A DNA stretch of 62,240 nucleotides, taken from Clostridia bacterium. Its GTDB lineage: Bacteria > Bacillota > Clostridia > Christensenellales > CAG-314. The notes under the pieces are model-generated. The model did no database searches. It saw nothing but the letters and a program-made list of their open reading frames with translations, and was not told where the DNA came from. Each line of letters opens with the position of its first letter. The stretch's first letter is position 1. Positions 34,158-40,254 of this stretch are shown here, piece by piece. The DNA lies in NCBI GenBank assembly GCA_028698585.1, contig JAQVWG010000002.1, forward strand, positions 214,250 through 276,489, read 5' to 3'. Both the position numbers and the translations under genes were made by a program.

Positions 34158-34233
34158 TCCTCCTTAGCTCAGCCGGTAGAGCATGCGGCTGTTAACCGCA
34201 GGGTCGTTGGTTCGAGTCCAACAGGGGGAGCCA
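34158..34233 (+). tRNA. trnN: tRNA-Asn (anticodon GTT), CCA encoded
   Basis: A cloverleaf of 76 nt with acceptor stem TCCTCCT / AGGGGGA, discriminator G and encoded CCA. The D-loop is AGCTCAGCCGGTAGAGC, the anticodon stem TGCGG / CCGCA with loop CTGTTAA (anticodon GTT at 34191-34193), and the T-arm GTTGGTTCGAGTCCAAC. Its 3' end abuts the AT-rich mobile element. Confidence 0.98.
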
Positions 34234-34377
34234 AATCAGTATAATAAGAACCAACAAACAAACTTCTATTATTTTAAAGGTGGATTTGCGGTTACATTTA
34301 TACTAAAAGATGATGAATTGTCCAATGATGGACGCTCAGAAAGAGCAAAAAGATATTGGAGCAACAATTCAAAAAAT

Positions 34378-34408
34378 AAGCGATGGCAATAGTCCACCGC
34401 TTTTTTTT
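34378..34408. terminator. Bidirectional terminator inside the element
   Basis: AAGCG-a-TGG / CCA-c-CGCTT around CAATAGT, followed by eight T residues on the plus strand and preceded by an A-run that gives U residues on the minus strand. Confidence 0.75.
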
Positions 34409-34448
34409 ATATTTCACACACAAAAAGTATTTTTATTTAATTGTTAGT

Positions 34449-34567
34449 CCTCGTCGCCTACTTTAAAATAAAGCACAAGCCATAGAGGTTCAGTCAAGGT
34501 GGAGATTGCGTAAGCAATACAGCCTTGACGGGTTCTCGGCTTGTGCTACTAATACAAAGGCGACAGG
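34449..34567 (+). ncRNA. Predicted structured RNA: four nested helices capped by a GUAA tetraloop
   Basis: Complementary segments nest from outside in. CCTCGTCGCCT (34449-34459) pairs with AGGCGACAGG (34558-34567), one bulge. AGCACAAGCC (34472-34481) pairs with GGCTTGTGCT (34538-34547). GAG (34485-34487) pairs with CTC (34535-34537). GTCAAGG (34493-34499) pairs with CCTTGAC (34523-34529). ATTGC (34505-34509) pairs with GCAAT (34514-34518) and closes a GTAA loop of GNRA type. The GNRA cap favours a folded RNA over a protein-binding DNA palindrome, though a single-strand or transfer origin is possible. Strand and ends are inferred. It is not an obvious member of an RNA class I know. Confidence 0.55.
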
Positions 34568-34609
34568 AATGGCATTAAATACTTGACAACCACATACTCA
34601 AAATGATAG

Positions 34610-34660
34610 TCCTTTGAGCTTCGGGGGTTTGGGGCAGAGCCACCATAAAATAATTAAATA
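34610..34660. other. G-rich motif common in Firmicute mobile elements
   Basis: Around 34618-34645 the sequence reads gagcttcgggggtttggggcagagcc. From memory, similar ggggtttggggcagagccc sequences recur near conjugative or mobilisable elements of gut Firmicutes. The function is not established, and I could not search for it here. Confidence 0.3.
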
Positions 34661-34768: not shown

Positions 34769-37036
34769 TTATACTAATATAAACTTATCTATTTGGAATT
34801 TGTTAAAATCATCTTGGGCTGCAAAGTAGTTTTTAAAATCTTCGTTACCACAAGCCATATTGTTTTCATTGAAATATATATTGCCAATTTGATTTTCTTT
34901 TTTTAATTTGGTTAGTAAATTAGGAGAAAAACCTTGTTTCATCAATTTTATTTCATCTGCCACACTCGTTCCATATAATAACATATCATACTCTTCCTCT
35001 GTGATTACATCAGTTTCTAGTGCAAGTTCAACAAATTTGCTATATTTAAAAGATATAAAATCTTCTTCCATTTTAAGTTTTACAATTGCGATATTTACTA
35101 ATTGAGAATCAGTTTTGTCTTTTAAAGAAAGGTAAACATTTTCTTTATAATTTTCTGAAACTTCACCATTTCTCTTAACTTCACCATATGAATTGCCTAT
35201 GTAGGTAAAATAATCCTCATTTTGAATTTTATTTTTAAAATTTTTTATTTCTCCTATTATGTTTCTTTTTAAAGAATTAACTTTTGAATACTTAATAAAA
35301 TTAATATAATATTTTTGAGCACTTTCTTCTTTAAGTCTGCGGATTTCATAGTCTATAACATCATAATTTTCATTTATAAACACTTTTGATATTCTAGTTA
35401 CTGGATTTCCTTCATATTTTGATTTCGCCTCAAGTATTTTGCTTGATAATTCAGTCAATAATGGCTGTGTAATTTTATATATTTCATCCATACCCAAAGA
35501 TATTAATTTTTGATGAAGTCTATCTAAATCTGATGAAGGTTCACTAAAATATATTTTTTCATTTGATTTAATTTTTTGTGCTGTTTTTTGTTTTGCTTCG
35601 TTATTAGAATCTAAATAATTACTTAAAAGGGGATTGTTTATTTCATCTAATACACTAGTATCACGAAGCCTTTCAAGATAATTATTCATATTATTGTTAT
35701 TATAATTGCTATGTACAAAATGTATTTGTGGGAATAATAACTTTAGACTACCATTATCAGAAAATATTTCACTTAGTCTATTTACACGCCCAATTAAATT
35801 AGTCAATCTTTTATATGTAAGAGAATAGGAATCAAGAATAAACAAAGAAGTAATGGGTAAGTTTACGCCCTCTAAAAGAACACTATTGGCAACTAAAAAC
35901 CTTATTTGTTCAATCGTTTTAAACTTATACTCTAAATAGTCTTTAATATAATCTGGAATTTTTCCATGTAAGTACATTACCCCTTTTGATAGATAATCTA
36001 TCATATTAAAATCTTTATGAACATATTTGCTTAGAATTTTTAAACTATCTTTTAGTTCTTTTGACAAACGTATTTTTGGCACTTTTGCTACAAATTGCTC
36101 AACGAAATCCTCAATTTTTTTAGGTCTATTAAAATATATTAAATTCTTATCTGAAGATTTACTTACAATATAATTTAAATAGCTTTTTTCAAAACCTATG
36201 GGATAATGTGAATTAAAGTATTTATTATATTTATTAATATAACATTTTTCATCATAGAGATAATATTCTGGTAGTTTTATGTTCTGGCTAATTTTATACT
36301 CTTTTATATTTTGATTTTGAAATATTTTTAAGTTGTCACTGTCTGATACAAGAGGAGATAAATAAATTATTCTGCAATTAGGATTTTTTATTTTATTTAA
36401 CTTTATCAATCTTGTTAACAATATGCTCCTACTATTATCGTTTAATAAATTGTGTGCTTCATCTATATATAAAAAATCATAACCCCAGTCTACACTTTCT
36501 AATAGTCTCAAAGCCCTCTCTTGCGTAAATATCCCAATAAATGATTTATTATCTTCGAACATTTCATCATGTATTAATATTTTTTCATTTAATTTTTCAT
36601 TTCGGATGTTTCTAAATGTTTGTAATAGCAAAGATTTAGTAGGTAAAATAATTGCGTGCTTAACATTTTCTGCTTTATTAATTTTTATTAAATCAATTAT
36701 TATACTACTTTTACCAAACGAGGTTGGAGCTATAAAACTTACTTCATTCCAATCATTTTTATTAATAGCCAATCTTTTTTGATTTTGTTGAAAAGTTTCA
36801 ATAATATCTTTATATTTAAAATTGTCTAATTCAACAGCATTTATAATATCAGCAATAGATTTATCATTAATCAACTCATGATGATTAATAAAATTTAATG
36901 TAGCAATAAATTTATATAATTCATGATGGCGGTTGCCTTCAATAATACCACTTACACTTTTTGTTTTAAAGTGATTATCATTTTGTTTTTGGGCTATAGG
37001 AATAGTTAAGATACTGTTAACATTTATAGTTTTCAT
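34769..37036 (-). CDS. Superfamily 2 DEAH helicase of the element
   Basis: A helicase of about 755 residues with motif I APTSFGKSS (Lys about 109), motif II IDEAHN (about 192-196), motif III YLSPL, and a second RecA domain with FLVANSVLLEGVNLP and LTNLIGRVNR (motifs V and VI). The LLEGVNLP/GRVNR wording resembles Ski2/MER3-like helicases, including those of the Hachiman defence family, but no HamA-like partner is seen. I take ATG 37036, which has AAAGGCGG upstream; it overlaps the primase-like gene. Base composition is AT-rich like the rest of the element. It could serve element replication or defence; the sequence does not decide. Confidence 0.75.
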   Translation of the reverse strand: MKTINVNSILTIPIAQKQNDNHFKTKSVSGIIEGNRHHELYKFIATLNFINHHELINDKSIADIINAVELDNFKYKDIIETFQQNQKRLAINKNDWNEVSFIAPTSFGKSSIIIDLIKINKAENVKHAIILPTKSLLLQTFRNIRNEKLNEKILIHDEMFEDNKSFIGIFTQERALRLLESVDWGYDFLYIDEAHNLLNDNSRSILLTRLIKLNKIKNPNCRIIYLSPLVSDSDNLKIFQNQNIKEYKISQNIKLPEYYLYDEKCYINKYNKYFNSHYPIGFEKSYLNYIVSKSSDKNLIYFNRPKKIEDFVEQFVAKVPKIRLSKELKDSLKILSKYVHKDFNMIDYLSKGVMYLHGKIPDYIKDYLEYKFKTIEQIRFLVANSVLLEGVNLPITSLFILDSYSLTYKRLTNLIGRVNRLSEIFSDNGSLKLLFPQIHFVHSNYNNNNMNNYLERLRDTSVLDEINNPLLSNYLDSNNEAKQKTAQKIKSNEKIYFSEPSSDLDRLHQKLISLGMDEIYKITQPLLTELSSKILEAKSKYEGNPVTRISKVFINENYDVIDYEIRRLKEESAQKYYINFIKYSKVNSLKRNIIGEIKNFKNKIQNEDYFTYIGNSYGEVKRNGEVSENYKENVYLSLKDKTDSQLVNIAIVKLKMEEDFISFKYSKFVELALETDVITEEEYDMLLYGTSVADEIKLMKQGFSPNLLTKLKKENQIGNIYFNENNMACGNEDFKNYFAAQDDFNKFQIDKFILV

Positions 37037-37526
37037 AACATAACCGCCTTTTATTTGTTCCAAAAAATATACGTGCAGCGTCTTTACATCCCATGTCGAC
37101 TTGTGGAATAAGAAATTGCAATATTTCTTGTAAACTATCTCTTTTATTTTTGTCTGTAATCGGTTCTCCTGTTACAAAAGCAATTCTATATTTAGGGTGG
37201 GTGTCTGTATTAGAAAAAGTCGGATACCAAAAAGTAGGTGTTATACAATGTTCCAAATAATGTTCAATGGCTTTTTGTGGTGGAAACATTATCTCTGTTT
37301 GGTCATTATCAACATCAACAAGAAATAATTGCTGTTCTACAAAGTCCGTTGAACGTGAGCCATTTAAAATAGCGGGACAAATCGTTTTTCCGCTTTCTAT
37401 TGCTTCAATAATCTTTTCAATTGTCAACTCTACTATTTTTAAGCGGTTTCTAATAAGGCGAATATCTTCACCTTTTGGCTTTTCTTTAAATTCTTTTGGG
37501 TCAATTTGTAATTTTATTTTTTTCAT
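37017..37526 (-). CDS. Primase/polymerase-like protein (AEP-type N-terminal domain), short
   Basis: A 169-residue protein with QQLFLVDVDND (a DxD metal site preceded by a hydrophobic strand), THPKYRIAFVTGEPITD and DMGCKDAARIFFGTNKR. This set and order resemble the archaeo-eukaryotic-type primase domains of phage and plasmid replication proteins, which are normally followed by a helicase domain in the same chain. Here the chain stops after the primase-like part and a separate SF2 helicase begins inside its last codons. The split may be natural or a truncation. The assignment is by motif pattern only. Confidence 0.5.
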   Translation of the reverse strand: MKKIKLQIDPKEFKEKPKGEDIRLIRNRLKIVELTIEKIIEAIESGKTICPAILNGSRSTDFVEQQLFLVDVDNDQTEIMFPPQKAIEHYLEHCITPTFWYPTFSNTDTHPKYRIAFVTGEPITDKNKRDSLQEILQFLIPQVDMGCKDAARIFFGTNKRRLCYENYKC

Positions 37527-38103: not shown

Positions 38104-38793
38104 ATGAAAAAAGCAACTCAACAAAACTTTTCAGGATACAGCAGTATATTTGCAATAAGATTAAGCGAACTAATGAAAGAATATAAGAAAACTCAACAAG
38201 ACATAGCTGAACTTGTTGGAACTTCAAGGCAAGCAGTAGCACAATACACAGATGGTAGCACTCAACCCACTATTGAAAGGTTGTACAAAATTGCTAATTA
38301 TTTTCAAGTAAGTGCGGATTATTTACTTGGTATTTCTGATATAAAAAGTATTGATTTGCAAGATAAAGAAATTAGCAGAATTCTTGGACTTAGTGAAGAA
38401 GCTATAGAAAAATTAAAGACTATTCAATTAAAAATAGAAAAAGCCATTAAGCTTAATAATGATAAAAACAATACAGAAGAATTTCATAATCTATATGATG
38501 AATTGTATTTTTTAGAAGGAACTATATATGCTATAAACACTTTACTATCGGATAGTGCTTCTATTGGTACACGTGCTATTGATTCTATTATTGAGTATTT
38601 ATTGTTTAATGAGAATGAATTTTACAACATAAGTTTAAATAATACAACCTATACAGCAAGTGGCGAAAAAGTTAGTTACTTTCTTATTGATGAACTACAC
38701 AATAAGTTAAAAGCATTAAAACTGATTAATTATAAAGGTACAAGTAATGAACATAGTAATTTATGCAAGATATTCAAGCGACAAGCAAACTGA
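38104..38793 (+). CDS. XRE-family repressor of the element
   Basis: A 229-residue regulator with an N-terminal helix-turn-helix (RLSELMKEYKKTQQDIAELV, then GTSRQAVAQYTDGSTQPTIE, residues about 20-75) and a long helical C-terminal part. AAGGAG lies seven bases before the ATG. The last 47 bases overlap the recombinase start, so repressor and recombinase share one transcript. Its probable operators overlap its own promoter. Such genes keep integrative elements quiescent. Confidence 0.88.
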   Translation: MKKATQQNFSGYSSIFAIRLSELMKEYKKTQQDIAELVGTSRQAVAQYTDGSTQPTIERLYKIANYFQVSADYLLGISDIKSIDLQDKEISRILGLSEEAIEKLKTIQLKIEKAIKLNNDKNNTEEFHNLYDELYFLEGTIYAINTLLSDSASIGTRAIDSIIEYLLFNENEFYNISLNNTTYTASGEKVSYFLIDELHNKLKALKLINYKGTSNEHSNLCKIFKRQAN

Positions 38794-40254
38794 AAACAGC
38801 ATTGAGGGACAATTAAAAGTTTGTCATGAGTTTGCAGAAAGAAATGGCTATATAGTTGTTGGAGAGTATATTGATAGAGCTATGACAGGCAGAAACGATG
38901 ACAGACCAGCATTTCAAAAAATGCTTGAAGATAGTAAGAAGAAAACTTTTGAGGCTGTTTTGGTTTATCAGTTGGATAGATTTGCCCGTAACCGTGAAGA
39001 CAGTGCAATTAATAAATTAAAACTAAAAAAGAATGGTGTTAAACTTTTGTCTGCTCGTGAGAATACAAACTCAGAAGATGCAAGTAGTATTTTGTTAGAA
39101 TCAGTTTTAGAGGGTATGGCAGAATATTTTAGCAAGGAACTTGCACAAAAAGTTAAAAGAGGTATGAGACTTAATGCAGAAAAAGGTTTTACACTGGTAG
39201 TCAAGTTGCATTAGGTTATAAAATTGTTGATAAAAAATATGAAATTGACGAAAAAAATGCTGTTGTAATTAGAGAAATATTTGAACAATATGCATAAGGT
39301 AAAACAGTTGTAGAAATAATTGATAATCTTAACTCTAAACAATTTAAAACTGGATATGGAAAACCTTTTACTAAAAATTCGCTTTATAATATTTTGCAAA
39401 ACAAAAAGTATATTGGTATTTATTTTTATGATGATATAGAAATTGAAGATGGCATACCTAGAATAATATCAGACAAACTATTTAATGAGGTTCAAGCAAT
39501 TTTAGAAAAGAATAAAAAGGCAAGAGCTAGAACCAAAGCAAATGAAGAGTATTTATTAACGACAAAATTATTTTGTGGACATTGTAAAAGCATGATGGTT
39601 GGGTACTGCGGAACTTCACGAACAGGAAAGAAACATTACTATTACAATTGTAAAAATAACATAAAAAAATTATGTAACAAAAAACAAGCCCCTAAACAAT
39701 GGCTTGAAGATTTGGTTATTAAAAAGTGTTATAGCATTTTAACTGATAAAAATATTGAGATTATTGCAAAAGAAGCTGTTAAAGCTTCAGAAAACATTGA
39801 TAATAATTCAATTCTTGAGTTACTTGTTAAACAATTGAAATCATATGAAAAAGAACAATCAAACCTATTACAAGCGGTGGCGGAGTGTCCAATTGACACA
39901 GTGCGTCAAGGTTTATATGAAAAACTAGGGCAAGTAATTGCAGATAAAAAAGAACTTGAAACACAACTTGCAATTGAAGAAAACAAAGCAAGTGCAAAAC
40001 TAAATGAAGAGCAAATTATTTTCTTTTTAAGAAAATTAAAAAACGGAGACCCAAACGATTTACATAACCGAAAAGCTTTAATTGCTGTGTTTGTAACTGC
40101 TATATACTTATATGATGAGCCAGAGAAGAATAAAAGAATAACATTTGTATTAAATGTTGACGGCAAGCCAACTGAAACAACTGAAGCTATATTTTCAGAT
40201 ATAGAAAACAATACAAATAGCGGTTCTTATATTAAAACAACTGGGGAGCCATAG
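38747..40254 (+). pseudogene. Large serine recombinase, disrupted
   Basis: The N-terminal catalytic domain (IYARYSSDKQTENSIEGQL, DRAMTGRNDDRPAFQKML, YQLDRFARN) is followed by a recombinase and zinc-ribbon domain (FCGHCKSMMVGYCG...KKLCNKKQAP) and a coiled coil. Two lesions interrupt it. One T is missing near 39190, so the frame runs to a stop at 39214. A TAA at 39295-39297 stands where AAA would give YAKGKTVVEI. Beyond it the frame is open to the normal end at 40254. Catalytic Ser10 is intact. It would have integrated or excised the element. Confidence 0.9.

Follow-up and report, generated by a model that had tools for sequence, protein, structure and literature searches.

The closest described counterparts of the hairpin analysed here are signals that act as folded single-stranded DNA. 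Frpo of the F plasmid is a single-stranded promoter, with the 3' arm of its hairpin serving as the non-template strand and the −10 region pre-melted. The single-strand origins (sso) of rolling-circle plasmids are orientation-specific folds of single-stranded DNA used for priming by a host polymerase, and the attC sites of integrons are folded single strands with a stem, an internal loop and a variable tip, alike within a genome and differing between genomes.

Our window, a stretch of 62,240 nucleotides from a Clostridia bacterium (contig JAQVWG010000002.1), contains a nested hairpin of about 120 bases (121 nt) near one end of a 6-kb tRNA-Asn element, confirming the fold proposed by an original prediction made from the letters alone (Table 1). 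We rate it as a kind of single-stranded DNA hairpin signal of mobile DNA, with a function that is predicted only. Our leading reading, to which we give roughly one chance in three, is that it acts as folded single-stranded DNA and would serve the element as a single-strand initiation site. With RNA parameters, 159 nt of the + strand around the hairpin fold to −65.6 kcal/mol, against −33.7 ± 3.7 kcal/mol for 200 dinucleotide shuffles, none of which is as good (z = −8.7); the − strand folds more weakly (−55.7 kcal/mol, z = −7.4). The GC-rich arms stand out as had been claimed, the hairpin having 48% G+C where the element has 28%, and a small internal loop (GGAG/ACA) lies close to the tip. An Rfam search of the window, as proposed with the original prediction, left the hairpin without any match even at E up to 10, so that no known RNA family fits it.

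Table 1. Features of the tRNA-Asn element and its hairpin, in window coordinates.
Feature	Position	Strand	Basis or remark
tRNA-Asn(GTT), last bases = left att core	34158-34233	+	ARAGORN; Rfam RF00005
Left att core GGGGAGCCA	34225-34233		At tRNA 3' end
Serine recombinase tail, in frame only in joined (circular) form	34234-34392	+	Frame across joined ends
Terminator-like hairpin with T run, between recombinase tail and long hairpin	34378-34408	+	Sequence
Whole hairpin	34448-34568	+	Strand with family motif and better fold
Outer stem P1, 5' arm (TCCT, GTCGCCT)	34448-34459	+	Pairs with 34558-34568; kept in G037 and G197
P1 helices	34448-34451/34565-34568; 34453-34459/34558-34564	+	Window fold
Large internal loop, 5' side	34460-34471	+	Window fold
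Middle stem P2, 5' arm	34472-34491	+	Pairs with 34531-34547
Helices of middle part	34472-34481/34538-34547; 34485-34488/34534-34537; 34490-34491/34531-34532	+	Window fold
Conserved core, 5' half: GTCAAGGTGGAG (stem P3 GTCAAGGT and unpaired GGAG)	34493-34504	+	
P3 helix	34493-34500/34522-34529	+	Window fold
Tip hairpin P4, C-GTAA-G cap	34505-34518	+	Window fold; family cap rule
P4 helix; GTAA cap	34505-34509/34514-34518; 34510-34513	+	Window fold
Conserved core, 3' half (G)CCTTGAC	34522-34529	+	Window fold
Large internal loop, 3' side (ACTAATACAA)	34548-34557	+	Window fold
Outer stem P1, 3' arm	34558-34568	+	Helix pairing
HamB-like DEAD-box helicase, 764 aa, 3' end toward hairpin	34769-37063	-	Pfam DEAD, Helicase_C; PADLOC HamB (Hachiman) E = 7e-45
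169-aa fragment like N-termini of phage replication proteins	37017-37526	-	phrog_25531 E = 3e-26; phrog_1883 (helicase) E = 3e-7
HTH repressor	38104-38793	+	HTH_3 E = 7e-14
Large serine recombinase	38747-40254	+	Resolvase, Zn_ribbon_recom; phrog_95 integrase in both pieces
Right att core GGGGAGCCA	40243-40251		Within last codons of serine recombinase

The element spans from the 3' end of the tRNA-Asn gene to about 40251. Across its joined ends the recombinase frame reads into the ORF behind the tRNA (...TTGEP / NQYNK...KNKRWQ, stop), and because of this continuity integration appears to exchange the C-terminus of the enzyme, a tail of 50-odd residues, for a stop. The tail, DGR(S/T)ERA(K/R)(R/K)YWSN..KNKRWQ, is common to the window element and to two genomes from other families of the order (G037 and G197), where it also adjoins the tRNA but the frame around the core differs. 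A frame change together with an in-frame stop disrupts the recombinase of the window, leaving the element probably fixed in place. To the right of the element stands a terminator hairpin like the one that comes straight after tRNA-Asn in relatives; in a search of relatives for the empty site, none matched across the joined flanks. The long hairpin follows the terminator of the recombinase tail and has the converging 3' end of the helicase gene on its other side. What had been described as a helicase/primase-like operon does contain a helicase, of the HamB-like DEAD-box type, and the rest is a fragment matching the N-termini of phage families. The helicase has no recognisable HamA partner, the phage-type fragment lying upstream instead. 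Peptide patterns found no homologue of the helicase in genomes or viral contigs, and no reverse transcriptase occurs among the proteins of the window element that were searched.

G037 and G197 share with the window an end module consisting of the tRNA 3' end, recombinase tail, terminator and hairpin, with other genes adjoining. Behind the hairpin, at 34610-34650, a further short stretch that is G-rich and palindromic (GGGTTTGGGGCAGAGCC) is also kept in all three. In G037 the module is adjoined by a tandem repeat of ~190 bp that includes a tRNA 3' end (positions 1-290 of locus L004).

Pairing in the hairpin is maintained, with compensatory changes. Two alignments were used, both small and each with a structure derived from one of its own sequences: in the window trio (three close homologues) double-sided changes fall at 3 of 40 pairs and 95.8% of cells are still paired, counts that 26 of 500 shuffles reach, and in five Saccharibacteria-type members they fall at 9 of 43 pairs with 93.8% of cells still paired, none of 500 shuffles reaching the double-change counts. 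One P2 pair, for instance, is G-C in the window and T-A in G037. Some G.T pairs, which would be G.U on the + strand, are invariant in both alignments. These changes bear out the earlier claim that the pairing is selected; arms conserved without compensation, the pattern that the original prediction had set against itself, are not what the homologues display. Compensation alone does not prove RNA.

A further homologue (G068) retains only the inner part of the hairpin, which led to a wider pattern scan. The family signature lies at the tip, GTCAAGGTGGAG-(short hairpin)-nnnnCCTTGAC, and the pattern GTCAAGGTGGAG-N6-34-CTACCTTGAC matched 72 stretches in 84,980 species genomes; it has 22 fixed bases, for which our own estimate of chance matches in random sequence of that size is ~0.9. 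The 12 bases of the 5' half of the core are identical in these 72 stretches and in G197, G037 and G068. A relaxed pattern added 12 stretches from IMG/VR; matches to a first IMG/VR pattern (GCACAA...GTCAAGGTGGAG) fold unlike the family and look like chance. Hosts of the pattern include Clostridia, Verrucomicrobia, Patescibacteria (Saccharibacteria, Moranbacteria), Planctomycetes, Actinobacteria, Nocardiopsis, Bacteroidota and others, and the carriers are integrative elements, plasmids, viral contigs, an insertion sequence and dispersed chromosomal repeats. Arm sequences are entirely different between members, forming 53 sequence clusters, and usually still pair: of 51 clusters that could be tested, 30 have arms that pair better than every one of 60 shuffled versions of themselves. 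Own arms were better than all 20 swaps between members in only 18 of 51, but swapping is a poor control because G+C differs between members, and shuffling within a member is the better test. The insertion-sequence lineage and some others combine a good tip with poor arms, and long arms are therefore not universal; a few listed members may be chance or degraded. The hairpin is rare, occurring in three of 396 genomes of the order; a 398-genome sample of the phylum gave, besides the window, one dubious match. BLAST of phages and plasmids with the hairpin found no homologue, Rfam found only tRNAs on 20 member loci, and neither the hairpins of these loci nor that of the window reach the gathering score of any Rfam 15 family. 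None of the open-access bacterial papers searched has the tip GTCAAGGTGGAG or its complement in its main text, and the family is apparently undescribed so far, with an earlier description possible.

Members occur in varied surroundings. Their neighbours include tyrosine integrases, Replic_Relax, REP_ORF2-G2P, ArdC, SSB, DUF2958 and DUF7249. A Verrucomicrobia plasmid (L189, Termitidicoccus) has two degenerate copies on the same strand; the region also holds an N-6 methylase and a DUF932 gene, and DUF932 is found in the F leading region too. A clostridial member is enclosed in an insertion sequence, represented by L048 and L082, that has inverted ends of ~25 bp and is flanked by direct repeats of ~25-27 bp, which are unusually long for target duplications. 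In other genomes the hairpin lies between housekeeping genes. Where one stretch holds two copies, these mostly have the same orientation. Near-identical copies within one genome (L075, L088 and L095) differ in their outermost bases and yet pair there, as if one arm had served as the template for lengthening its partner.

The main rival to an initiation site, possible although in our view doubtful, is a palindrome like REP/REPIN or MITE sequences: a non-autonomous selfish unit, intergenic in chromosomes and mobile elements and without function for the element, which some transposase would move as a single-stranded hairpin. What recurs in differing contexts within one genome is indeed the hairpin unit, spanning about −57 to +74 relative to the start of the core, as in the ~10 copies with different flanks dispersed over the chromosome of Nocardiopsis metallicus and the three intergenic copies of another genome (G803), and GGAG, with GTAG on the other strand, lies at the base of the tip hairpin in a way reminiscent of the GTAG tag that REP sequences carry. 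In N. metallicus (L147) two inverted copies lie ~860 bp apart with further shared palindromes upstream, and the repeat looks mosaic-like. Against this reading, members measure 100-150 nt, not the 20-50 nt of REP; copies usually number one to four per genome (1-11 matches across 20 carriers), too few for REP, and the window's own genome has one; and the same tip sequence is found from phylum to phylum, unlike REP sequences, which by description are specific to a family or species. No clean insertion junction was seen, including at the Lacunisphaera loci (L042/L104) searched for an empty site. In a search of assemblies that are mostly incomplete MAGs, the Y1 transposase domain PF01797, which is wider than RAYT, was detected in 14 of 20 carriers as well as in G197; the other six carriers, the window's own genome, G037 and G068 gave no match. 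A RAYT as common mover seems doubtful, the domain not being found in several of these carriers. By the REP description of a 20-50 nt palindrome with a GTAG (or CGTC) end tag, the window hairpin does not belong: it is 121 nt long, with GGAG on one strand and no GTAG.

A structured non-coding RNA transcribed from the + strand, regulatory or defence-related, was the default of the original prediction and now seems unlikely. The strong fold, the compensatory changes, the invariant G.T pairs and the window's C-GTAA-G cap, compatible with GNRA, all agree with it; if the DNA reading is right, a strong fold, compensatory changes and a tetraloop-like cap can stem from DNA instead. Isolated mismatches inside the arm helices of the family are G.T in 10 cases and A.C in 7, a count not calibrated on known RNAs, in which the G.T excess expected of RNA is barely visible. 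Of 33 independent tip hairpins whose stems have 4 bp or more, 24 have GNA or GNNA loops, where chance would give G...A in 1 in 16, and C-G closes 21 of these 24. The cap had been taken as a GNRA hallmark of RNA, but three-base GNA loops dominate (15 of 21 three-base loops) and the third-base purine of the GNRA rule is present in only four of the nine four-base GNNA caps. C-GNA-G is the rule of extraordinarily stable DNA minihairpins. The CGCGAAGCG minihairpin melts at a Tm of 88.5 C (PMC10527192). The strand carrying GTCAAGGTGGAG gives the more stable fold in 55 of 66 members, and the cap rule holds for this same strand. Because the arms have no excess of G.T over A.C and the caps follow C-GN(N)A-G, the sequence evidence, which is indirect, favours folded single-stranded DNA over RNA. 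The absence of an Rfam family and of a constant partner gene, and the position of a TATAAT-like box within the 3' arm and not ahead of the hairpin, also speak against RNA. A resemblance to Y RNA (GUC..AAGGU and CUUGAC are reminiscent of the Ro stem) was dropped, Rfam giving it no support.

It is improbable that the hairpin is a transcription insulator or bidirectional terminator at element ends, blocking read-through between converging genes. Its place in the window, with the recombinase tail on one side and the helicase converging from the other, would suit such a role, as would that of the clostridial insertion-sequence member behind the 3' end of an rve-type (DDE-type) transposase gene, but no T run follows the hairpin, the neighbours of family members are not mainly convergent, a terminator needs no tip conserved across phyla and a separate terminator already precedes the hairpin. 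It is very improbable that the large serine recombinase of the element uses the hairpin as its attachment site or as an accessory site: serine recombinase genes lie within 3.5 kb of the hairpin in nine related loci and the window hairpin is near att, but the att core is ~215 bp away, a serine recombinase is lacking in the vicinity of most members and tyrosine-integrase elements also carry the hairpin.

Returning to the single-strand initiation site, to which the original prediction's option of a single-strand origin comes close, we find that the 3' arm often holds TATAAT, TACAAT or TAAAAT, a better match to the box than shuffled sequence gives (p = 6e-7) and also better than on the opposite arm (p = 4e-4). 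The box tends to the internal loop (unpaired 0.67 vs 0.30 in flanks, p = 3e-5), an unpairedness partly expected of an A+T-rich hexamer from composition alone. Its geometry is that expected of a single-stranded promoter. In the window the matching side of the large internal loop, where many members hold the unpaired box, has a weak version, and G037 and G197 also have weak matches only. TTGAC is not an ordinary −35 box because its distance to TATAAT varies, from about 6 to 21 nt across members. The gene orientation predicted by a promoter model was found in 21 vs 8 raw cases and, after clustering, in 18 vs 8 (within 300 nt, p = 0.08), which is not a significant bias. We therefore hold the initiation-site reading with modest confidence, since the spacing varies, the boxes of the window group are weak and gene orientation is not significant.

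On this reading, the mobile element would pass through a single-stranded stage, reached in transfer, in rolling-circle replication or when the lagging strand is exposed. The + strand would then fold into the long hairpin, with its very stable GN(N)A cap, conserved tip and internal bubble, and host RNA polymerase or primase might recognise it and start an RNA, which could prime the complementary strand in the manner of single-strand origins and of the Frpo hairpins on the F plasmid. Least certain is the promoter step, because the window's TATAAT-like box is weak. Some members adjoin genes typical of elements that go through a single-stranded stage, namely Replic_Relax, REP_ORF2-G2P, ArdC and SSB; other carriers, namely the DDE-type insertion sequence, viral contigs and dispersed chromosomal copies, have no known single-stranded stage. 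We tentatively propose that the family may be a class of hairpin signal in single-stranded DNA that had escaped recognition, keeping the same tip across many phyla, read by a shared host factor and carried on integrative elements, plasmids, phages and insertion sequences. If so, a single DNA hairpin module is common to unrelated mobile elements across phyla. This would suggest that a universal host machine acts on these elements when they are single-stranded, and GTCAAGGTGGAG-hairpin-CTACCTTGAC would provide a sequence handle on the mobile DNA of uncultured bacteria such as Patescibacteria.

Among the known systems, attC sites resemble the hairpin as folded single-stranded DNA with a stem and an internal loop, but here the conserved part is the tip, and positions 34440-34580 contain no GTTRRRY or RYYYAAC boxes. 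REP/REPIN sequences with RAYT are likewise intergenic, dispersed single-stranded DNA palindromes with a tetranucleotide tag near the hairpin; the present family is three to five times longer, of low copy number and conserved at its tip across phyla. The sso is similar by description, not by sequence, as an orientation-specific fold of single-stranded DNA for priming, priming by the hairpin being predicted, although the family is not limited to rolling-circle plasmids. From the Frpo/ssi sites of conjugative plasmids it differs in showing no sequence similarity, in length (the F Frpo hairpin is ~250 nt), in its unfixed −35/−10 spacing and non-significant gene orientation, and in its occurrence on insertion sequences and chromosomes as well; with boxes that do not keep promoter spacing and a weak box in the window, we do not assign it to that group. 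It nevertheless resembles Frpo/ssi as a long hairpin of mobile elements that would act in single-stranded form, in having a −10-like box within its 3' arm and, in some members, in its position before ArdC, SSB or DUF7249 genes.
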